This document shows, in pieces, positions 1-14,070 of a stretch of 41,433 bases of DNA. This DNA comes from Candidatus Omnitrophota bacterium. Lineage in GTDB: Bacteria; Omnitrophota; Gorgyraeia; Zapsychrales; Fredricksoniimonadaceae. Location: the NCBI GenBank assembly GCA_903959815.1, contig CAJBYM010000136.1, positions 1 through 41,433 of the forward strand. Direction: 5' to 3'. Below the pieces are notes generated by a model. The model was not told the DNA's origin and ran no database searches. It worked only from the letters and a program-made list of their open reading frames with translations. Position numbers and translations under genes: made by a program. Each line of letters begins with the position of its first letter. The stretch's first letter is position 1.

Positions 1-564
1 ACGAATGAGCTCACTGACAATATGCACCGCCAGCATAAACACCGGCATAATAAGCGTAACTGCCATAATGCCTCGAGGCTGCCCCATCAAATGATCAAAA
101 TATCCCAAAAATCCCAGTTCTTTAAAGCCCGTGTACTGAACGTAAAAGAACACAACTAGCGCCAACCCCATTGTCATCGACCATTCCGTGTTCGGCGACT
201 TAAAGAACGGGATCAGGCCGATATAATTCGAAGCCAGGATATAAATAAAAAGCGTCCCGATGAATGGAGTAAATTTGCGTCCCCTGGGGCCAAGGATACT
301 GCAAACAAAATCATCCATAAATGTGACGAAGAATTCCGCAACGCTCTGCAAACGGCCAGGGATCGTCTGAGGTTTACGCGTGGCAAAGTAAGCGACCAAA
401 CCCAAAAGAAAAATAATAAAGAGCGAATAGATCGCGCTTTCCCAGGAATGCAAAAAATGACCTAAAGCATTATCCCCGCTCATTTCCGCAGCAAGGGCAA
501 TGAAATTAGGAAACTCTGGCATGGCCTGCGCATGGCTGGCAGCTACTTGAACGGGTTCTGTCAT
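1..564 (-). CDS. atpB: ATP synthase F0 subunit a, 3' end outside window
   Basis: This is the N-terminal 188 residues of F0 subunit a, the membrane channel half that passes protons or sodium to the c-ring. The frame is open to the window edge, so the C-terminal helices with the essential arginine are not visible. After a polar start (MTEPVQVAAS) come hydrophobic segments such as AIYSLFIIFLLGLVAYF, then the family-typical stretch around SVAEFFVTFMDDF and ILGPRGRKFTPFIGTLFIYI, followed by NYIGLIPFFKSPN. The ATG at 564 has a weak AAGG about 9 bases upstream and lies about 20 bases after a strong promoter. It would be the first gene of an atp operon running leftward. The family call is secure; the ion specificity cannot be judged from this part. 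Confidence 0.93.
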   Translation of the reverse strand, partial: MTEPVQVAASHAQAMPEFPNFIALAAEMSGDNALGHFLHSWESAIYSLFIIFLLGLVAYFATRKPQTIPGRLQSVAEFFVTFMDDFVCSILGPRGRKFTPFIGTLFIYILASNYIGLIPFFKSPNTEWSMTMGLALVVFFYVQYTGFKELGFLGYFDHLMGQPRGIMAVTLIMPVFMLAVHIVSELIR

Positions 565-591
565 ATGGGGTTGCCTTCACAACTCTTCGTT

Positions 592-619
592 AATATAACA
601 CTAATCAAAGGGGTGTCAA
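592..619 (-). promoter_or_regulatory. sigma-70 promoter of atpB
   Basis: The minus strand reads TTGACA (614-619), a 16-base spacer, then TATATT (592-597). Predicted transcription starts near 585, giving a roughly 20-base leader before the atpB ATG. The sequence around the -35 box (CCGTTGACACCC) is nearly identical to the hldA promoter at 35432-35460. Confidence 0.7.
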
Positions 620-634
620 CGGAGAGAGAAAGAT

Positions 635-669
635 TTGTAGAGGCGGACCCCGAAGGCCCGCCCCTACAA
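635..669. repeat. Intergenic palindrome, copy B
   Basis: Imperfect inverted repeat of about 15 bases per arm with two mismatches and a loop of about 5 bases. The minus strand reads TTGTAGGGGCGGGCC, then TTCGG, then GGTCCGCCTCTACAA. It starts 6 bases after the glnK stop codon and could act as a transcription terminator, although no long T tract follows. It shares its outer arms with the palindromes at 1053-1080 and 26943-26970. Confidence 0.75.
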
Positions 670-675
670 TACACA

Positions 676-1017
676 TTACCCTATGGCGATACTACCGCGC
701 TCTTCCGTACGGATACGGATGGTCTGATCAAGCGGCAGAATAAAGATCTTGCCGTCGCCTGTTTCACCGGTCTTCGCCGCCTTAATGATCGCCCTAACGG
801 TCGGCTCAACGAAACTATCATTGACCGCGATCTCAAGACGAACCTTACGCAGGAGATTCCCCATTTCTCTGGCGCCACGATAGATCTCGGTAACGCCTTT
901 CTGACGACCGTGCCCCAAAACTTCGGTTACGGTCATCAAATTAACCTCTGCCTTATACAGTTCATCCCGAACATCATCAAGCTTGCTGGGTTGAATAATA
1001 GCTACTATCATTTTCAT
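676..1017 (-). CDS. glnK: PII nitrogen regulatory protein (GlnK/GlnB)
   Basis: A 113-residue PII signal protein, the trimeric sensor of 2-oxoglutarate and ATP/ADP that binds and blocks the ammonium channel. It begins [16 protein letters not shown], has the T-loop region [14 protein letters not shown] (residues 35-48), and the C-terminal signature [12 protein letters not shown] followed by IRIRTEERG. Arg47, which plugs the channel in GlnK-AmtB complexes, is kept. Tyr51, the uridylylation site of enteric PII, is Glu here (RGARE instead of RGAEY). The ATG at 1017 is preferred because GGGAG lies 6 bases upstream; an upstream TTG at 1023 would abut the same site. It lies directly downstream of amt, the usual pairing, so GlnK is the likely subtype. 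Confidence 0.95.
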
Positions 1018-1052
1018 ATACAACTCCCTTCGTAAATAAGATTATTTCGGTC

Positions 1053-1080
1053 AAGGGCGGGTCACAGACCCGCCCTTACA
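1053..1080. repeat. Intergenic palindrome, copy A (amt-glnK hairpin)
   Basis: Perfect 11-bp inverted repeat with a 3-base loop. The minus strand reads AAGGGCGGGTC, TGT, GACCCGCCCTT. It begins 3 bases after the amt stop codon and ends about 35 bases before the glnK start. It has no T tract, so it is more likely an mRNA-stabilising or attenuating stem than a full terminator. It belongs to the same palindrome family as copies B and C. Confidence 0.8.
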
Positions 1081-1083
1081 CAA

Positions 1084-2310
1084 TTATTCGAGCATGGTGT
1101 ACGCGCGTTCATGATGCTGGGTAAGATCAAGACCAATGTCCTCTTCTTTGGTCGTAACTCTCATCCCCATCAACAAGTCGATCACCTTAAATAACACCGC
1201 GGTCACGACCAACGAATAAATGATCGTCACACCAACAGCTTTAGCCTGAATAATGAACAACTCCGGATTACCATAAAATAACCCGTCATTTCCTGCCGAA
1301 TTCACAAGCTTGCTCGCAAAAAGCCCTGTGGCCAAAGCACCCCAAATACCACCGATGCAATGCACACCAAAAGCATCAAGCGCATCATCATATCCAAGCT
1401 TCGGCTTAATAACTGCCGCTGCCAGATAACAAAATGCACTGACCAGCAAACCAATGATCAAAGCACCGCTCACATTCACAAAACCTGCTGCAGGCGTGAT
1501 CGCAACAAGACCTGCCACAGCGCCGGAACAAATACCGAACAATGTTGGCTTCCCATTACGGAACCATTCGATCGCTGCCCAACTCAACCCTGCAGCCGCT
1601 GCAGCCGTATTTGTAACCACAAAGGCATTCGCCGCAAGGCCATTAGCCGCCAGCGAAGAACCTGCGTTAAACCCGAACCAGCCGAACCATAAAAGAGCGG
1701 TCCCCAGAGCCACGAACGGAAGATTGTGCGGCGATGGAATATGTTTTTCCGCATTCTTGCGTGGCCCAATCATAAGAGCCGTGACCAGAGCAGCAATACC
1801 AGCATTAATATGAACAACTGTACCACCTGCGAAATCCAAAGCGCCCATATTACGTAAGAATCCGCCCATACCCCACACCCAATGACAAACCGGAGCGTAC
1901 ACCAGCGTTAACCAGAGAATGATAAAAACCACAAATGAAGAGAACTTCATTCTCTCAGCAAAAGCGCCCAGAATAAGTGCCGGGGTAATAACCGCAAACA
2001 TGGCCTGGAAAATCATAAAGACCTGATGCGGAATTGTTGCCGAATAATCAGCGTATGGCTCAAGCCCTACACCATTGAGCATGGACCACTGCAAACCGCC
2101 AATGAACCCATTACCCGGCGCAAATGCTAAGCTATAGCCATAAACGACCCACAATACACTGACCAAACACAACACAAAGAAACACTGCATTAAAACACTA
2201 AGAACATTCTTTCTTCTGACCATCCCTCCATAAAAGAACGCGAGCCCTGGTGTCATAAGCATAACCAGTGCTGTACATATTAAAACCCAAGCTGTATCTC
2301 CTGAATTCAT
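1084..2310 (-). CDS. amt: Ammonium transporter Amt
   Basis: A 408-residue Amt/MEP/Rh channel protein that carries ammonium across the inner membrane as a trimer. The family pattern is clear: the start SGDTAWVLICTALVMLMTPGLAFFYGGMVR, the signature DFAGGTVVHINAGIAALV containing the first pore histidine, and FGVHCIGGIWGALATGLFA with the second pore histidine near the C-terminus. About eleven membrane spans are expected. No cleavable signal peptide is evident; the protein starts at the first membrane helix. The ATG at 2310 has AAAGGAG 6 bases upstream. Expression appears to depend on a structured leader of about 230 bases (2311-2538) with an apparent ANTAR-type antiterminator. Confidence 0.97.
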   Translation of the reverse strand: MNSGDTAWVLICTALVMLMTPGLAFFYGGMVRRKNVLSVLMQCFFVLCLVSVLWVVYGYSLAFAPGNGFIGGLQWSMLNGVGLEPYADYSATIPHQVFMIFQAMFAVITPALILGAFAERMKFSSFVVFIILWLTLVYAPVCHWVWGMGGFLRNMGALDFAGGTVVHINAGIAALVTALMIGPRKNAEKHIPSPHNLPFVALGTALLWFGWFGFNAGSSLAANGLAANAFVVTNTAAAAAGLSWAAIEWFRNGKPTLFGICSGAVAGLVAITPAAGFVNVSGALIIGLLVSAFCYLAAAVIKPKLGYDDALDAFGVHCIGGIWGALATGLFASKLVNSAGNDGLFYGNPELFIIQAKAVGVTIIYSLVVTAVLFKVIDLLMGMRVTTKEEDIGLDLTQHHERAYTMLE

Positions 2311-2360
2311 AAAAGACTCCTTTCATTAACCTCAAATTTCCTTCTCCGATCAGAGGCGCC

Positions 2361-2410
2361 ATAAAATAAAATAAGCGCCCCCAATTCCTGAACTTCTGAA
2401 TTGAAGACGC
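2361..2410 (-). terminator. Intrinsic terminator in the amt leader
   Basis: The minus-strand RNA has arm GCGTCTTCAATTC (2410-2398), a 10-base loop, and arm GAATTGGGGGCGC (2387-2375). All 13 positions can pair, three of them as G-U. The U-rich run TTATTTTATTTTAT (2374-2361) follows at once. It sits inside the amt leader, 50 bases before the amt start, so it would stop transcription before the gene unless prevented. Its 5' arm shares bases 2403-2410 with the hexaloop hairpin at 2403-2420, so the two structures exclude each other. Confidence 0.75.
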
Positions 2411-2420
2411 CATTGTCTTC
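2403..2420 (-). promoter_or_regulatory. ANTAR-type hexaloop hairpin P2 (candidate)
   Basis: The minus-strand RNA reads GAAGAC, AATGGC, GTCTTC: a perfect 6-bp stem and a six-base loop with A at position 1 and G at position 4. These are the two positions reported as invariant in RNA bound by ANTAR antiterminator proteins. Forming this hairpin removes the first arm of the downstream terminator. Confidence 0.7.
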
Positions 2421-2462
2421 TTCCTCTTACGAGGCTATATAAAGCTTCTTTACTTTATCTTC

Positions 2463-2480
2463 ACAGGCATCATTGCCTGT
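2463..2480 (-). promoter_or_regulatory. ANTAR-type hexaloop hairpin P1 (candidate)
   Basis: The minus-strand RNA reads ACAGGC, AATGAT, GCCTGT: a perfect 6-bp stem with a six-base loop, again A at position 1 and G at position 4. It lies 42 bases upstream of P2; the linker contains a small CCTC-GTAA-GAGG stem. A further hairpin (CACGGCC, GAACA, GGCCGTG; 2487-2505) lies just upstream and does not have a hexaloop. Confidence 0.65.
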
Positions 2481-2544
2481 TATTTTCACGGCCTGTTCGG
2501 CCGTGTTAGGCCCCATAGATCCACGGGACCGTGTCGATGATTTA

Positions 2545-2573
2545 AATATACTCCGTACTTGAGAAAAATGCAA
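2545..2573 (-). promoter_or_regulatory. sigma-70 promoter of amt-glnK
   Basis: The minus strand reads TTGCAT (2568-2573), a 17-base spacer, and TATATT (2545-2550). Transcription would begin near 2538 and give a leader of about 228 bases before amt, consistent with leader-based control. I saw no sigma-54 type GG-N10-GC element here. Confidence 0.65.
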
Positions 2574-2647
2574 GAGGGAAGATAAAATTTATTGTCGACG
2601 AGAAACACAAGCCTATGAAAAATAGTTTATCAATTAATTCTTCCACA

Positions 2648-2676
2648 TTGCATCAACCAGGCTCTGCCCATATAAT
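2648..2676 (+). promoter_or_regulatory. sigma-70 promoter of the symporter operon
   Basis: TTGCAT (2648-2653), a 17-base spacer, and a consensus TATAAT (2671-2676). Transcription would start near 2683. It lies inside the longest possible reading frame of the symporter, so the ATG at 2615 cannot be the start for this transcript. Confidence 0.7.
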
Positions 2677-2701
2677 AAACACCGTTAACATGGGAGGCTC
2701 C

Positions 2702-4261
2702 GTGAGCAAAATCCGCGATTCCTGGGGGTCCAAGATCGGCATCATCATGGCTGTCGCCGGCTCTGCCATCGGACTTGGAAATTTCTTAAGATTTCCAGCG
2801 AAGGTGGCTGCAAATGGTGGTGGCGCCTTTATCATTCCCTACCTTATCGCCCTCTTTCTCGTTGGAATACCACTCATGTGGGTCGAATGGGCCTTGGGGC
2901 GCTTCGGCGGTGGATTCGGCCACGGAACCGCGCCGGGGATCTTTCACAATATCTGGCAAAAAAATAGATTCATCCGCTATTTCGGTGTTATTGGGATCTT
3001 CGGCCCCCTGGTCATCTTCATCTATTATACATTCATTGAATCCTGGACTCTGGGCTACAGCGCCTTTGCCCTGTTCGGAAAACTAGCCGGGATCAACGAC
3101 CAGACAACAATGCAAAATTTCTTGCGCGGCTACCAAGGCATCCAAAATAACGAATTCTTTCACGGCCTGGGCTGGGCCTATTTATTCTTTCTTATCACTT
3201 TTTCTTTAAACATTCTTGTCATTTACCACGGCATCAAAGGCGGAATTGAAAAACTTTGCCGATGGGCGATGCCCTTATTCTTTTTATGTGCACTCATGCT
3301 CATGATCAGGGTCCTTACCCTGGGCACACCTGACCCATCTAAGCCTGACTGGAATATCAGCAATGGATTTGGTTTTCTATGGAATCCAGACTTCTCGGCT
3401 CTTTTATCCGCTAAAGTCTGGCTCGAAGCCACCGGACAGATCTTTTTCACCTTAAGTGTCGGGATCGGCGTGATCTTGACCTATGCCAGCTATCTTAAGA
3501 AAAACGATGACGTCGTTCTTTCCGGTTTAAGTGCCGCCAGCACCAATGAATTCGCAGAAGTCATTCTGGGAGGAAGTATTGTGATTCCCGCTGCCTTTGT
3601 TTTCTTCGGGCCCATTGATACCCAGGCCATTGCCAGATCCGGCACTTTCAATCTCGGCTTTGTGACCATGCCACTTGTATTAAACAAGCTCCCATGGCCG
3701 GAGATCCTTGCCTTTGCGTGGTTCTTTCTACTTTTTCTGGCCGCCATCACCTCTTCTGTGTCTATCGCACAGCCCGCGATCGCCTTTCTTGAAGATGAAT
3801 TCGACATCAATCGCAAGAAAGCAGTCGGCATATTTGCCGTCACCACGTTCATTCTTTGCCAACCCGCGATCTTCTTTCTTAAGAATGGTGTTGTGGACGA
3901 ACTCGACTTCTGGGGTGGAACTGTCTTTCTGGTTATTTTTGGACTCATTGAAATACTCCTATTCGCCTGGGTCTTTGGCATGAACAATGCCTGGGATGAG
4001 ATCCATAAAGGTGCAAACATGCGGATTCCGAAGATCTATAAATTCATCATCAAATATATAACACCAGGTTTTCTCATCTTTATCATCGGCATGTGGCTAT
4101 GGCAGGAATGGATCGGGATCATCATGATGAAAACTGTCGCCGATACCGACAAACCCTATATTCTGGCAACACGCATCGGGCTCATTTTTCTGTTCATAAC
4201 GATCGCCTTTCTCGTCAAGATCGCCTGGCAGCGCAAACAGCAGCAAGGAGTAGCCCCATGA
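2702..4261 (+). CDS. Sodium-dependent amino-acid symporter (NSS/SLC6 family)
   Basis: A 519-residue inner-membrane transporter of the neurotransmitter:sodium symporter family, the LeuT fold, importing an amino acid with sodium. The first helix carries the hallmark GSAIGLGNFLRFP, with the unwound substrate and sodium site, followed by NGGGAFIIPYLIALFLVGIP. About eleven or twelve hydrophobic segments follow. The frame opens at 2615, but a TTGCAT-N17-TATAAT promoter lies downstream of that ATG, and GGGAGG (2692-2697) stands just before the GTG at 2702. The product MSKIRDSWGSKIG then matches the usual short N-terminus. The ATG at 2690 is possible but has no ribosome site. It overlaps a MetS-like small partner, which suggests a MetP-type methionine/alanine transporter; the substrate is inferred only. 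Confidence 0.93.
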   Translation: MSKIRDSWGSKIGIIMAVAGSAIGLGNFLRFPAKVAANGGGAFIIPYLIALFLVGIPLMWVEWALGRFGGGFGHGTAPGIFHNIWQKNRFIRYFGVIGIFGPLVIFIYYTFIESWTLGYSAFALFGKLAGINDQTTMQNFLRGYQGIQNNEFFHGLGWAYLFFLITFSLNILVIYHGIKGGIEKLCRWAMPLFFLCALMLMIRVLTLGTPDPSKPDWNISNGFGFLWNPDFSALLSAKVWLEATGQIFFTLSVGIGVILTYASYLKKNDDVVLSGLSAASTNEFAEVILGGSIVIPAAFVFFGPIDTQAIARSGTFNLGFVTMPLVLNKLPWPEILAFAWFFLLFLAAITSSVSIAQPAIAFLEDEFDINRKKAVGIFAVTTFILCQPAIFFLKNGVVDELDFWGGTVFLVIFGLIEILLFAWVFGMNNAWDEIHKGANMRIPKIYKFIIKYITPGFLIFIIGMWLWQEWIGIIMMKTVADTDKPYILATRIGLIFLFITIAFLVKIAWQRKQQQGVAP

Positions 4262-4353
4262 CAATGCCTGGATGGATCATCCTTATCTCAAGCTGGCTTT
4301 TTATCACAGGACTTTGCGTATTCTGTTTTTACCGCGTCCTGTCTAAAAAATAA
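4258..4353 (+). CDS. MetS-like small subunit of NSS transporter
   Basis: A 31-residue single-span membrane peptide. It begins MTMPGWIILISSWLFITG, has one hydrophobic helix (about residues 6-24), and ends with the basic tail RVLSKK. Its ATG overlaps the symporter stop codon (ATGA), and AAGGAG lies 7 bases upstream, so the two are translationally coupled. Corynebacterial MetP, a member of the same transporter family, needs a small subunit, MetS, of this size and position. I assign the role by analogy of size, topology and context, not by a strong sequence motif. Confidence 0.72.
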   Translation: MTMPGWIILISSWLFITGLCVFCFYRVLSKK

Positions 4354-4463
4354 AAAGGGGCTGAGTATTCATTCCGCCTTATCCCCAGGTCCGCACCCCA
4401 AGACTTCCCCGGCCCCCGCCGGAAAAGAGCGCACCAAGTGACTGAATACCCAAGACCCCCTTT
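4341..4463 (-). terminator. Long rod-like stem-loop between convergent genes; spoVG terminator
   Basis: A 110-base region (4354-4463) folds into a rod. AAAGGGG (4354-4360) pairs with CCCCTTT (4457-4463), GTATTCA (4365-4371) with TGAATAC (4443-4449), and inner C/G-rich arms continue the stem. On the minus strand it is followed by TTTTTATTTTTT (4356-4345), a strong terminator tail after spoVG. On the plus strand the tail is weaker but could end the symporter transcript. The size is unusual for a plain terminator; see findings. Confidence 0.6.
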
Positions 4464-4480
4464 ATCTCAACATCCAACTA

Positions 4481-4741
4481 TCAATTCTTCTGATAATGAT
4501 CCACAACTTTCTGGAAAAGCTCATCATAAGCAGACGCAGATCGACAAACAACCTGGTCATACCACTTATTGTCCTTGCCTTGCTCCTGAGGCATAGACAC
4601 AAAAAGCCCCTTTTTGCCTTCAACAAGACGGACACCACGGATAACCAAAACATCATTCACAGATACATCCGCAAATGCCTTAAGCCCTCCCGCATCAGGT
4701 AAACGATACATTTTCTCGACATTGAACGTGATCGCTGACAT
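4481..4741 (-). CDS. spoVG: SpoVG-family nucleic-acid-binding regulator
   Basis: An 86-residue SpoVG protein, a small site-specific DNA and RNA binder first known from Bacillus sporulation but widespread in non-sporulating bacteria. The typical pattern runs from the N-terminal strand (EKMYRLPDAGGLKAFADVSV) through VLVIRGVRLVEGKKGLFVSMP to the C-terminal helix. The frame is open for 35 more codons upstream. The ATG at 4741 is chosen because AAGGAGG lies 5 bases before it and the product then starts as family members do. It is transcribed alone from the promoter at 4886-4914 and converges on the symporter operon. Confidence 0.95.
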   Translation of the reverse strand: MSAITFNVEKMYRLPDAGGLKAFADVSVNDVLVIRGVRLVEGKKGLFVSMPQEQGKDNKWYDQVVCRSASAYDELFQKVVDHYQKN

Positions 4742-4885
4742 ACCTTCCTCCTTAATTAATACTACTGTTGTCCATAGGCCGCAGGGGCTCGGCTTTCTTT
4801 TTATTTTTCCTTCAAATAAATTTTCACTGCTTAAGAACTCTCTCAAATATTTACTGCTTGATGATACGTCAAATGCAATGACGAG

Positions 4886-4914
4886 AATTTAGCATATATT
4901 TTATTTATTGTCAA
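4886..4914 (-). promoter_or_regulatory. Strong sigma-70 promoter of spoVG
   Basis: The minus strand reads TTGACA (4909-4914), a 17-base spacer ending TGC, and TAAATT (4886-4891). It sits in an AT-rich stretch. Transcription would start near 4879, leaving a leader of about 138 bases. This is among the best-matching promoters in the window. Confidence 0.75.
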
Positions 4915-4981
4915 TTAATATATTGTTGATAAATCAAACAATGAGCGGCCTGTTTTTGCCAATCTTCCTCGAACATTGAAC

Positions 4982-5009
4982 TTGATTTTTTAGCAAATTG
5001 TGTTATTAT
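4982..5009 (+). promoter_or_regulatory. sigma-70 promoter of the XRE-cupin operon
   Basis: TTGATT (4982-4987), a 16-base spacer, and TATTAT (5004-5009) on the plus strand, about 50 bases before the start codon at 5062. Together with the spoVG promoter it explains the gene-free stretch 4742-5061, which is a divergent promoter region. Confidence 0.5.
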
Positions 5010-5061
5010 TACAAAACAAATTGGGGGATTTTTACTCAACCCCCGTACACGGAGACATCTC

Positions 5062-5613
5062 ATGCAGCAATTAGGCACTCACATCCAGCAAATCCGCAAG
5101 CTCAGAAAAATATCGCTCACTGAACTTGCAACATCCAGCGGCGTGCAGATCGCCACGCTCTCACGCATAGAAAATGGAAAAATGACGGGCACACTTGGCT
5201 CACATATGAACATTGCCAAAGCCCTTGGCGTTGACATCACAGAACTCTACCAAGGTTTGCAAGAGAATGCCCCCAGCCCGATCAAGGCCGAAGAAGCCTT
5301 GGAAGCTATTTCAGCGGTGAATGACAAGGTTTCTTTTGAGATCTTGGCACGCCAAGCATCCTCCAAAAAGATGCTCCCGGTCCTGATAAAGATCGAAGGC
5401 AAGGGGTCCACAACCCAAGAACGCCGTGAATCACTTTCCGAGCGCTTTTTGTTTGTATTAGAAGGCGTCGTTGTGGTCAAAGTCAAAGATCAGGCCATCC
5501 GGCTTGAGAAAAGCTCTTCTCTCTACTTCAACGCATCCATGCCTCACACGATCGAAAATCCAAACAGCTCGGCAGCAAAGATCCTTTCTATCATGACGCC
5601 CGTATCCTTATGA
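5062..5613 (+). CDS. XRE-family regulator with C-terminal cupin
   Basis: A 183-residue transcription regulator. Residues 5-65 form a lambda-repressor-like helix-turn-helix (QIRKLRKISLTELATSSGV, then TLSRIENGK). Residues about 105-182 form a small beta-barrel cupin, seen in FLFVLEGVVVVKVKDQAIRL and ASMPHTIENPNS. This architecture is common in one-component regulators that sense a small molecule or redox signal through the cupin. Only one of the usual cupin metal histidines is obvious (MPHTIEN), so metal binding is doubtful. A GGAG lies 9 bases before the ATG. The stop codon overlaps the next start, so it is coupled to the receiver-like protein. Confidence 0.9.
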   Translation: MQQLGTHIQQIRKLRKISLTELATSSGVQIATLSRIENGKMTGTLGSHMNIAKALGVDITELYQGLQENAPSPIKAEEALEAISAVNDKVSFEILARQASSKKMLPVLIKIEGKGSTTQERRESLSERFLFVLEGVVVVKVKDQAIRLEKSSSLYFNASMPHTIENPNSSAAKILSIMTPVSL

Positions 5614-5969
5614 ACACCGTCCTCATCTACGCAGCGGAAGAATATCTCCGCGAAATGGTGAAGTCGGCTTTGATCAACCACCTGCCCCTAATCATCACAG
5701 AAAATCGCGAGCAATGCCTTGAAGCCCTAAAACAAAAAACAGCGATCAGTACAGGATTTATCAGCGCATGTTCTGAAGATGGGAATGCGGACCTTGGGCT
5801 TTTTGAAGAGATCCTGGCCCTAAGACCAGGACTACACGTGATGGCGCTGGGTGATCACAATACAGAAGATATTGCTGCTGAAGCTGTGCGGCATGGCGCG
5901 GCAGGATACATTCTCATGCCAGCTGAAGCTAATGCGATTTTGACACTGGCACGAGAGACGACGCCTTAA
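5610..5969 (+). CDS. Degenerate receiver-domain (response-regulator-like) protein
   Basis: A 119-residue stand-alone protein with the fold pattern of a receiver domain. The last third (MALGDHNTEDIAAEAVRHGA then AGYILMP) is clearly receiver-like. The phosphorylation machinery is missing: the acidic pair after strand 1 is replaced (VLIYAAEEY), strand 3 ends in FISAC with no aspartate, and the conserved lysine is Met (ILMP). It should therefore not accept phosphate in the normal way and may work by protein binding. It is translated from an ATGA overlap with the XRE-cupin gene. Its last 41 bases overlap the end of the opposing gene at 5929-6993. Confidence 0.8.
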   Translation: MNTVLIYAAEEYLREMVKSALINHLPLIITENREQCLEALKQKTAISTGFISACSEDGNADLGLFEEILALRPGLHVMALGDHNTEDIAAEAVRHGAAGYILMPAEANAILTLARETTP

Positions 5970-6993
5970 CAACATCCGGACTGGCAACCGGAAGCCCTTC
6001 ATCTCTCACAACAGACAGAAAATCACCATACCACTGTTTCTTCACACCATCCGCCTTGGCAAGTTTGTCAAAGTCTGCACGGAACATCGCATAAACACGC
6101 GCATAACTTCCGGAAACGATCCTGGCAAGTTCAGCCGGATCAATGTTGGACCGCGCCGCATCAAAGACAAGCTCTTTACCATCCCAATGAAACACAATAG
6201 AACGCGCTACTGTAAAAAGCGGCATTGATTTTGAACCACGGCCCTTGATCGTCTGTTCTGCCGAGAAAGTAATACGAAAATTCCCCACCAAAACCCCTTG
6301 AGCATAATCAAAACTTGATGTCACCTCAAAATCCAGAAGACCAAGGCCTTTACGGCTCGCTTCATTCGGAACGGTCAACAATAACTTTGGAGACGTCCCG
6401 TCAAGACGATAAGCTTGGATAAATTTTGTGCTATAACCATCGCCAATACCAGCCAAACTGACAACACTCGCCAAGCCATTGTCCAACAACTTAAAGACAG
6501 GCTCACCTTTCTTATTATCAAAAACATCAATGTGTCCAAAATACGCCCAGGAATCCCTATGATCTTTGAAAAGTAAATACTGATAATCCGGGAAGCGTTG
6601 GCTAGAACTGGAAACACGTAAAGCTCGGTATTCACCTAACTCATACTCTTTGACAACGGGATACGGCAAAATACATCCACTGTAATTCGTATAGCCGCAA
6701 CCGAACAAATACTCATCACGCAAAGGACTGCGATGCGTATCCTTGACATTAAAACTGCCGCCGATCCCCAGTTTTTTCCAAAGCTTTCCAATATGCACGC
6801 CAGAATAATAATAATCCTCACGCCTTATCTCATCCTTCTTAAAAAAACTTTTTTCAGCTCGCTGATAGTAAGCATCTGTATCAGAAAAGAACTTCTCAAC
6901 ATCGATATAAGTGACTGTCTTAGGAATAAAAAGAAGAGCAACAGCAATGATGATCAAAATCGAAGGAACAAACTTTAAGAAGTCATTCTTCAT
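5929..6993 (-). CDS. Membrane-anchored protein of unknown function
   Basis: A 354-residue protein I do not recognise. Residues 9-24 (VPSILIIIAVALLFIP) form a signal anchor. The rest is predicted to be periplasmic, mixed alpha/beta and rich in aromatic residues. A small cysteine pair stands in the middle (FGCGY ... SGCILP). Phrases such as LLFKDHRDSWAYFGHIDVF and IVFHWDGKELVFD suggest a beta-propeller-like or lipoprotein-like beta fold, but this is speculation. GGGAG lies 5 bases before the ATG, and a promoter (7027-7055) precedes it, so it is a single gene. Its 3' end overlaps the convergent receiver gene by 41 bases. Confidence 0.8.
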   Translation of the reverse strand: MKNDFLKFVPSILIIIAVALLFIPKTVTYIDVEKFFSDTDAYYQRAEKSFFKKDEIRREDYYYSGVHIGKLWKKLGIGGSFNVKDTHRSPLRDEYLFGCGYTNYSGCILPYPVVKEYELGEYRALRVSSSSQRFPDYQYLLFKDHRDSWAYFGHIDVFDNKKGEPVFKLLDNGLASVVSLAGIGDGYSTKFIQAYRLDGTSPKLLLTVPNEASRKGLGLLDFEVTSSFDYAQGVLVGNFRITFSAEQTIKGRGSKSMPLFTVARSIVFHWDGKELVFDAARSNIDPAELARIVSGSYARVYAMFRADFDKLAKADGVKKQWYGDFLSVVRDEGLPVASPDVVKASSLVPVSKSH

Positions 6994-11560: not shown

Positions 11561-14070
11561 GAAAGTTTCCTTGCGATCTCTTCGATCTGGAACGCCTCGA
11601 TCATATCTCCGACCTGATAACCATCGAACTTATCGACAGAAATACCGCACTCAAAACCTTCGCCCACTTCTTTAACATCATCTTTAAAACGCTTAAGCGC
11701 CGAAATCTTACTCGTATGAACCGTCTCACCATTACGGATAACATCAACTTCCATCTTCTGACGCATACGGCCTTTAAGCATGAAACAACCTGCCACGAGC
11801 CCTGACTTGGTCAGATTAAATACCTGCCTGACCTCGGCGCGCGCAATGAAATGGCGCTTGGTATCAGGTTTCAACAACCCTTCAAGGGCCGCTTTCACAT
11901 CATTGACCGCATCGTAAATGATATTGTAACGACGCACATCAACCGGCGACTTTTCAACCTCAGCATTAGCATCTGCATTGGTCCCAACATTAAACGCAAT
12001 GATGATTGCCTTGGACACATGCGCAAGGATAATGTCCGACGCATTCACATCACCGACCCCGCTATGGATGAACTTGACATTAACCTCCTTGTTCGTATTG
12101 GGAACTTTCGCAAGGGCCTGGCGTAACGCCTCCACAGAACCCTGAACATCCCCTTTAAGAACAATGTTAAGATCCTGAACTTCACCGGCTTTCTTCTGTG
12201 CCAAAAGCTCTTCCAGCGTGATCTTATTATTATCTTTCAAACGATCGGCCTTGAATTTCTCCATGCGCATTTCGGAGATCTCACGTGCGACCTTTTCATT
12301 CTCCACAACAAAGAACTTCTCGCCTGCTTCAGGCACCGCAGAAAGACCCAGGATCTCGACCGGCATCGACGGGCCAGCTTCCTTAACATGGCGTTGATGA
12401 TCATCGAACATGGCTTTTGCCTTGCCATAATACGGACCAAAAACAACAACGTCACCTTCCTTGAGTGTTCCACTTTGAACAATCAACGTCGCCACCGCAC
12501 CACGACCAGGGCTCAAATGAGCCTCGACGACAATACCGGCAGCTTTCTTATTAGGATTAGCCTTAAGTTCAAGGATCTCGGACTCAAGGAGGATCATTTC
12601 CAACAGATTATCAATGCCCTGACCCGTGAGTGCAGAAACAGGAGCCACAACCGTCTTACCGCCCCAGTCCTCAGGCATCAGATCATGTTCGATCAGCTGT
12701 TTCTTGACCTTTTCTGGATCTGCATTCTTAAGATCAATCTTATTAAGAGCCACAACAATGGGAACCCCCGCCGCCTTGGCATGATCGATCGCTTCGAGCG
12801 TCTGCGGCATAAGGCCTTCATTGGCCGCCACAACAAGAACAACAAGATCGGTAATATGCGCCCCTCTGGCACGCATCGCGGTGAAGGCGGCATGGCCTGG
12901 CGTATCAAGGAAGGTGATCTTTCCTTTATCCATCTGAACAGAATACGCACGGATATGCTGTGTAATACCACCATGCTCCGTATCAACGACCTTGGTCTTG
13001 CGGATACAATCCATCAAAGACGTTTTTCCATGATCAACATGCCCCATAAATGTCACAATAGGTGCACGGTGCATCAATGTGGCAGGGTCATCTTTCGCTT
13101 CTTTCTCATGCAAATCAATGACCTGCTCTTCCTGGGACTTCAGAACAAGGAGGTTATAGCCAAATTCCTTACAGATCTCACGGGCAATATCTTCCCCTAG
13201 ATTCTGGTTGATGTTCGCAAAAATACCTTTCGCCATCAGAACCTTAAGTAGCGCGTTCGCTTTTTCCTGAATGCGAAAAGCAAGCTCTCCAACGGTGATC
13301 GGGATCTTAACGTCAATATCCCTCAAAGGGCCGTCGTATTTAGCAGGACCCGATGGCACAAGCGGCGTCACATCAGACGGAGCGATCGTGCCTTGAGCAA
13401 CCTGCTGGGCTACAGCATGGGCATTACGCGCTGCTTGAAGCGCAGCCTGCTCTTCTTCACGCCGCTTAGCCAAAGGTTTTACAGAAATGAATTCGGGCTG
13501 AGGCTTTGCAATCGGCTTCTTAACGATCTTTTTAATGATCGTGGTCACCTTTTTACCATCAACATCCGTTGTTATGACCTGTTCTTCAACCGTCACATTC
13601 TCAAATTGTGCGAGCTCATTAGGAACTTGCTCGGCCGGGCCTTCGACAGACCGGGCATCCGGGGCTCTAACCACCGGCTTCGGCAGCTCAATAGGCTTTG
13701 GCTCAGGCTTGGTAACAATACGTACCGTTATCGGCTCTGGAGCAGGTTCTTTTTTATCATCTGCCTTGATATCAACCTTGCTCTTACCTTTAGACTTAGC
13801 CGGCGCTTTCTTTTTTGAGACAACAGCTTCTGCCCCGTCAGCAGCAACAGCATTCTTCACCACACGCTTGGCCACGGGCTTTTTCACGAGAATTTCTTCT
13901 TTCTCAACAGGGATCAACCCTTTGGATTCCAGCTCGCCTCTTAAAAGAGCCAGAACACCAGGGCTTAATTCCTGAGCATCACCTTTGGCACGCAGTTTCA
14001 GCGCCTTGAGCGTTGCGAGAACAAGCTCCTCGCTGATATTATATTTTGCTACCAGTTCCCTAACTAACAT
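11557..14070 (-). CDS. infB: Translation initiation factor IF-2
   Basis: An 837-residue GTPase that brings initiator tRNA to the ribosome. The N-terminal IF2N domain (residues 1-50) is followed by a long Lys/Pro/Glu/Ala-rich linker (about 55-240), a second IF2N region (about 255-310), and the GTPase core: G1 [11 protein letters not shown] (342-351), [11 protein letters not shown], and the NKIDL motif. Domains II to IV follow. It lies 40 bases after nusA, the classical nusA-infB order. The usual downstream partners rbfA and truB are absent; trpS follows instead. Confidence 0.98.

Follow-up and report, generated by a model that had tools for sequence, protein, structure and literature searches.

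A Putative ANTAR-Type Attenuator with Three Hexaloop Hairpins Upstream of amt-glnK in a Candidatus Omnitrophota Genome

The amt-glnK Locus and Its Leader

The window, that is, the whole 41,433-nucleotide stretch of DNA analysed here, carries on its minus strand amt (1084–2310), which encodes an ammonium transporter (PF00909, E = 1e-133; TIGR00836 above cut-off), and glnK (676–1023), which encodes a P-II signalling protein (PF00543, E = 6e-29). As glnK starts 60 bp 3′ of amt, the two presumably belong to one operon. The leader runs on the minus strand from about 2538 to 2311, immediately before the amt start codon at 2310, and is preceded by a sigma-70-type promoter (2545–2573, minus strand) with TTGCAT at 2573–2568, a 17-bp spacer, and TATATT at 2550–2545; the –10 element, TATA.T, is equally placed in 13/13 aligned relatives. 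Divergent from amt, and having the intergenic region in common with it, lies a gene for a sodium:neurotransmitter symporter family transporter (PF00209; 2615–4261, plus strand).

The first-pass annotation had described a promoter, two hexaloop hairpins, a terminator, and a U-rich tract at this locus, and re-reading of the sequence located every one of these on the minus strand at the coordinates it had given. Absent from that account were two helices at the 5′ side of the leader, both on the minus strand. Helix A (GGTCCCGT...ATGGGGCC, 2509–2530) lies where the transcript is expected to begin and shows double-sided changes in 5/8 pairs, while helix B (CACGGCC-GAACA-GGCCGTG, 2487–2505) is capped by a GNRNA-type pentaloop that recalls phage boxB. 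Further downstream, the two hexaloop hairpins already claimed do exist, namely P1 (2463–2480; ACAGGC-AATGAT-GCCTGT) and the putative antiterminator P2 (2403–2420; GAAGAC-AATGGC-GTCTTC), both on the minus strand and both with A at loop position 1 (A1) and G at position 4 (G4), but a third, P1b (2439–2458, minus strand; ATAAAGT-AAAGAA-GCTTTAT), had been overlooked, and it too has A1 and G4. Where at least two hairpins with six-nucleotide loops of this kind are expected of an ANTAR leader, the window thus holds three.

The structure of the amt leader is beyond chance. A 175-nt stretch of it folds to –69.4 kcal mol–1, compared with –40.2 ± 3.8 kcal mol–1 in dinucleotide shuffles (7.7 SD lower; 0/200 shuffles), and perfect A1/G4 hexaloop stems (6 bp or longer) occur at least twice per 235-nt leader in 0.035% of 20,000 dinucleotide shuffles, and three times in 0/20,000. 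A search of window positions 1–6000 against Rfam returned no match above the gathering score, only sub-threshold chance matches. Two further scanner matches in the window, at 11714 and 8861, were set aside as not leader-like.

The distance of 42 bases between P1 and P2 had been flagged in the first-pass annotation as longer than in many examples. This linker in fact consists of 4 nt, P1b, and 18 nt, of which 12 nt lie in a 4-bp linker hairpin (2423–2434, minus strand; CCTC-GTAA-GAGG) that shortens the P1b–P2 distance and leaves 6 nt outside the helix. Because P1b and the linker hairpin fill it, the linker contains no real gap, and the concern over its length disappears. The P1b–P2 spacing falls within what is permitted for ANTAR linkers, for which the range of 5–12 nt in eut leaders (PMC3369931, PMC8934654) and also that of 2–25 nt in an actinobacterial set were used for comparison. 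In the accessible portions of the ANTAR literature, we found no description of a 4-nt P1–P1b linker or of three hairpins in place of two.

P2 leads into an intrinsic terminator stem-loop (2375–2410, minus strand) of 13 pairs, including three G-U, with arms at 2410–2398 (GCGTCTTCAATTC) and 2387–2375 (GAATTGGGGGCGC), and then into the U-rich tract TTATTTTATTTTAT (2361–2374, minus strand), which is read in the sequence and is conserved in the aligned leaders. P2 and the terminator have bases 2410–2403 in common, and the earlier claim that they are mutually exclusive holds in computed folding of the growing transcript: the probability of P2 is ~0.93–1.0 up to position 2379, and 0.0 once 2375 is included and the 3′ arm of the terminator is complete. 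The calculated stabilities are ~–18 kcal mol–1 for the terminator, ~–9 kcal mol–1 for P1, and ~–6 kcal mol–1 for P2. Such modelled behaviour is as expected of an attenuator in which P2 would need to be held for read-through.

To compare leaders, amt orthologues of same-family relatives were taken together with their upstream DNA, and 14 amt leaders, located by a pattern that also asked for loop G4 (and lost none of them), were aligned; we note that the related sequences in our alignments are non-independent. P1 is found in 13/13 aligned leaders, in two of them with a 7-nt loop, and has G4 in 11/11 hexaloops and one double change, while P1b is found in 10/13 leaders, with G4 in 10/10. In the three leaders without P1b, P1 lies 10–15 nt from P2, which is the classical dual arrangement. 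Taking the hexaloops of P1, P1b, and P2 in the relatives together, the first-pass annotation was right about G4, which is present in 35/35, but A is not obligatory at position 1, where purines predominate (A in 27 hexaloops, G in seven, and T in one); the remaining loop positions are freer to vary, except for position 6 of P2 and of P1b. The segment 5′ of P2, counted from P1b or else from P1, is at most 15 nt long or has one or two hairpins within it, such that 3–15 nt are unpaired in 13/13 leaders, and all leaders with long P1b–P2 linkers have hairpins inside the linker.

Covariation differs in strength across the leader. The terminator stem has 23 double-changed cells in the amt leader alignment (0/500 shuffles), and helices A and B together have 28 (0/500 shuffles), with helix B 100% paired in 13 leaders and switching from CAC/GTG to TTG/CAA as a compensatory unit. 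For P2 the covariation is modest, with six compensatory cells (1/500 shuffles) that come mostly from the outer pair, and the stems of P1 and P1b receive little such support since both are near-invariant. Across 59 distinct matches to a generic model, built with the 5′ arm of P2 unpaired, the terminator stem shows 146 compensatory cells (0/500 shuffles), and loop G4 and the closing C-G pair are present in 59/59, an invariance that is partly by choice, because the model sequences were picked for having the hairpin. The hairpins, loop G4, and the terminator are thus conserved in related amt leaders, and the lack of conservation that the first-pass annotation had named as evidence against its reading did not appear.

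The ANTAR Protein and Its Putative Regulon

The regulator had been predicted to lie elsewhere in the genome, with its absence to be counted against the reading. A PF03861 profile search of the whole genome, a fragmented and probably metagenome-derived assembly of 1.8 Mb in 139 contigs, gave exactly one match, on contig C28 (G000:C28:22531-22689; 71.4 bits, cut-off 27.3). The protein, P0002, has 421 residues and the Pfam architecture GAF-GAF-ANTAR, and its nearest ANTAR proteins come from Candidatus Omnitrophota MAGs. In a PDB search, its ANTAR domain matches Rv1626, NasR, and EutV, while the first GAF domain matches phosphotransferases of the PtsP type, with weaker matches to NifA-like GAF domains.

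The RNA contacts of EutV include Arg142, Lys143, Lys147, Lys149, Glu160, Tyr164, which stacks on loop G4, and Met172 (PMC8934654). In an alignment with EutV, their counterparts in P0002 are R366, K367, R371 (Lys147 in EutV), K373, E384, and M396, all of which are invariant across 24 relatives, and the position of Tyr164 is His in P0002 and Tyr in most relatives.

The ANTAR gene lies directly 5′ of a 703-aa glutamine synthetase gene, and an ANTAR leader separates the two; in 12 relatives a co-oriented amt lies within 1 kb 3′ of the ANTAR gene (within 5 kb in several more). Three leaders were found in this genome: that of amt-glnK (model R2, E = 8e-11), that of the large glutamine synthetase gene (L002:9418, minus strand; model R3, E = 2e-11), and that of a second amt (L063:11994, plus strand; model R3, E = 4e-11). 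The glutamine synthetase leader reads TGAAGAC-AGTGTG-GTCTTCA, 16 nt, and AGGGC-AATGGC-GTCCT, followed by a terminator. A weak own-genome model match on contig C109 proved to be an ordinary terminator 3′ of another gene and was discarded.

Covariance modelling places leaders of this kind at amt, glutamine synthetase, nifH, and nirB genes throughout the order. Among 55 relatives, 70/124 listed R3 matches lie just 5′ of amt and/or just 3′ of an ANTAR gene, although up to 32 of the matches were recovered by construction, as R3 was partly trained on amt and ANTAR loci. Other targets that we sampled include glutamine synthetase, nifH (TIGR01287 above cut-off), a reductase of the NirB type, Rex, PAS-LuxR regulators, and outer-membrane proteins, and one genome has a leader before its ANTAR gene, which would mean autoregulation; the relatives’ loci with nifH, NirB-type reductase, Rex repressor, and ANTAR-gene leaders are L238, L250, L240, L248, L253, and L239. 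Over 236 genomes of the phylum, strong R3 matches occur in 68/183 with an ANTAR protein versus 6/53 without (p = 2e-4), and several of these six are incomplete or have ANTAR-positive congeners. One genome without an ANTAR protein (G040, 93% complete) was considered as a natural control and dropped, because its amt leader sits further upstream and a congener has ANTAR.

Proposed Mechanism, Alternatives, and Relation to Known Systems

Judging from sequence and computation, we put the probability that the amt-glnK leader is an ANTAR-type transcription attenuator run by the GAF-GAF-ANTAR protein at about 0.9. The ANTAR protein, the conserved leaders, and the ANTAR genes adjoining amt and glutamine synthetase support the first-pass reading of ammonium uptake as ANTAR-switched. 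In the mechanism we propose, RNA polymerase starting from the sigma-70-type promoter would transcribe helices A and B, and then P1, P1b, and P2. P2 would fold first but would lose its 3′ arm to the stronger terminator once the second arm of the latter is transcribed, such that by default transcription would stop at 2374–2361, before amt. When active, the GAF-GAF-ANTAR protein would grip the G4 hexaloops, being recruited by P1 and P1b and holding P2, and with P2 held the terminator would be blocked and amt-glnK transcribed. Two more leaders, that of the glutamine synthetase gene adjoining the ANTAR gene and that of the second amt, would be under the control of this protein. Activation under nitrogen limitation is a natural guess because of the genes controlled, and the GAF domains may sense a nitrogen metabolite.

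We weighed three other accounts of the leader. It could be a regulated attenuator whose sensor is the A/B structure, acting as a metabolite-binding RNA or as the site of another protein, with the hexaloops incidental or secondary. Helices A and B are indeed among the best-covarying parts and have an invariant core, and the A+B model R1 has a single match per genome in 16 relatives, located at amt in a subclade: it lies directly 5′ of amt in 13 genomes, ahead of a porin-like gene that amt follows in G001, and in G006 ahead of a second amt-family gene (G025 being left out). However, the model gives no A/B match in any other family of the order, and none at the two further leaders of this genome, those of glutamine synthetase and the second amt, and leaders without A/B all retain the hexaloops and the terminator; moreover, A/B has no Rfam match and is not predicted to pair with the terminator. 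We therefore consider a sensor in A/B improbable.

A terminator ahead of a gene can also work as a constitutive level-setter, and a partial terminator of this kind might set the level of amt unregulated, but this would leave the P2 overlap, the invariant G4, the hairpin-bridged linkers, and the linkage to ANTAR genes unexplained, and we rate it as very improbable. The least credible account is ribosome-dependent attenuation via a leader peptide, for which an ATG is available in the P1 loop of the window, where ATGCCTGTGAAGATAAAGTAA begins within P1. In roughly half of the aligned relatives this loop lacks an ATG (AGGGTT, GAAGTT, AGTGAA, AACGAA, AAGGAT, and TAAGCA), and inspection by eye showed no common peptide or run of codons in the aligned relatives, such that the alignment contradicts this account and we give it next to no weight.

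The attenuator run by a GAF-GAF-ANTAR protein has close parallels. NasR of Klebsiella senses nitrate or nitrite through a NIT domain. As in NasR/nasF (PDB 4akk), the system here would place a nitrogen-assimilation operon under antitermination by a homologous ANTAR domain. It differs from NasR in its GAF-GAF sensor and in its targets, which are amt, glutamine synthetase, nif, and nir genes. GnfR of Geobacter sulfurreducens is a response regulator with a partner kinase, unlike the one-component GAF-GAF-ANTAR protein found here. As reported in PMC8164766, with reference to Ueki and Lovley (2010), GnfR is an ANTAR regulator of nitrogen genes. With EutV and the eutP/eut leaders of Enterococcus faecalis (PMC3369931, PMC8934654), our leader has in common the G4 hexaloops, with A at position 1 (here A or G), the overlap of P2 with an intrinsic terminator, and the RNA-contact residues of the regulator. 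The differences are the three hexaloops, the 4-nt P1–P1b gap, and the hairpin in the second linker (eut linkers are 5–12 nt), as well as two GAF domains instead of the phosphorylated receiver of EutV, and ammonium uptake as the target.

The mechanism itself is already known, and Ramesh et al. (2012; PMC3369931) predicted such leaders in other phyla: in the accessible part of that paper, ANTAR nitrogen regulons are predicted in Desulfotomaculum acetoxidans, D. reducens, and Pelobacter, with P-II, ammonium transporter, glutamine/glutamate synthase, nitrite reductase, and nitrogenase genes as targets, and with dual hexaloops and an overlapping terminator as here, including several copies per unit. 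The same part describes neither Omnitrophota nor a third hexaloop nor A/B helices. What is new here is the lineage and the variations in architecture, namely three hexaloops, bridged linkers, and the A/B domain. Omnitrophota is a phylum without isolates (PMC10066038), and the regulation of its nitrogen assimilation is poorly understood. The leaders indicate that GAF-GAF-ANTAR antitermination governs ammonium transport, glutamine synthetase, nitrogenase, and nitrite reductase genes from ordinary sigma-70-type promoters, and such antitermination appears to govern nitrogen assimilation over much of Omnitrophota.

Leaders with Altered Hexaloop Architecture in Relatives

In 24 leaders of relatives, P2 begins 8–24 nt after the –10 box, so near that there is no room for P1; the loci of these P1-less ANTAR-type leaders include L055, L046, L020, L019, L054, L219, L247, and L249, among others. 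Among 89 deduplicated leaders of relatives, a C-[R..G..]-G hexaloop caps 25 terminators, versus 8/166 other terminators taken from the same DNA (p = 5e-7). Capped terminators are present in 12/24 of the P1-less leaders versus 8/166 ordinary terminators (p = 6e-8), while the contrast between P1-less and P1-bearing leaders is weak (p = 0.25 by a loose definition and 0.03 by a promoter-proximal one). The terminator of the window, with a loop of 10 nt, falls outside the hexaloop-capped group.

The P1-less leaders, half of them hexaloop-capped, are a possible new architecture, confined to the relatives. If functional, they would rely on P2 together with the terminator cap, or on P2 by itself, whereas P1 and P2 are both required in the textbook system. 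We suggest, tentatively and as something we hold rather doubtful, that the ANTAR recognition unit of Omnitrophota is more flexible, comprising three hexaloops with a bridged linker in the window, and P2 with a terminator cap in relatives. In the structure of EutV, each dimer engages a single loop at a time, and leaders with one or three hexaloops offer natural material for asking why two are needed.

An outer-membrane-like protein family without an NCBIfam match is encoded 3′ of ANTAR leaders at L249, L004/L080 (both in G001), and L146; in G001 the gene lies between the leader and amt, and it is a candidate nitrogen-related porin. Short open frames are also found between leader and amt in several relatives, at L006, L008, L013, L021, L022, and L027, some of them similar near the start and others resembling small membrane proteins.
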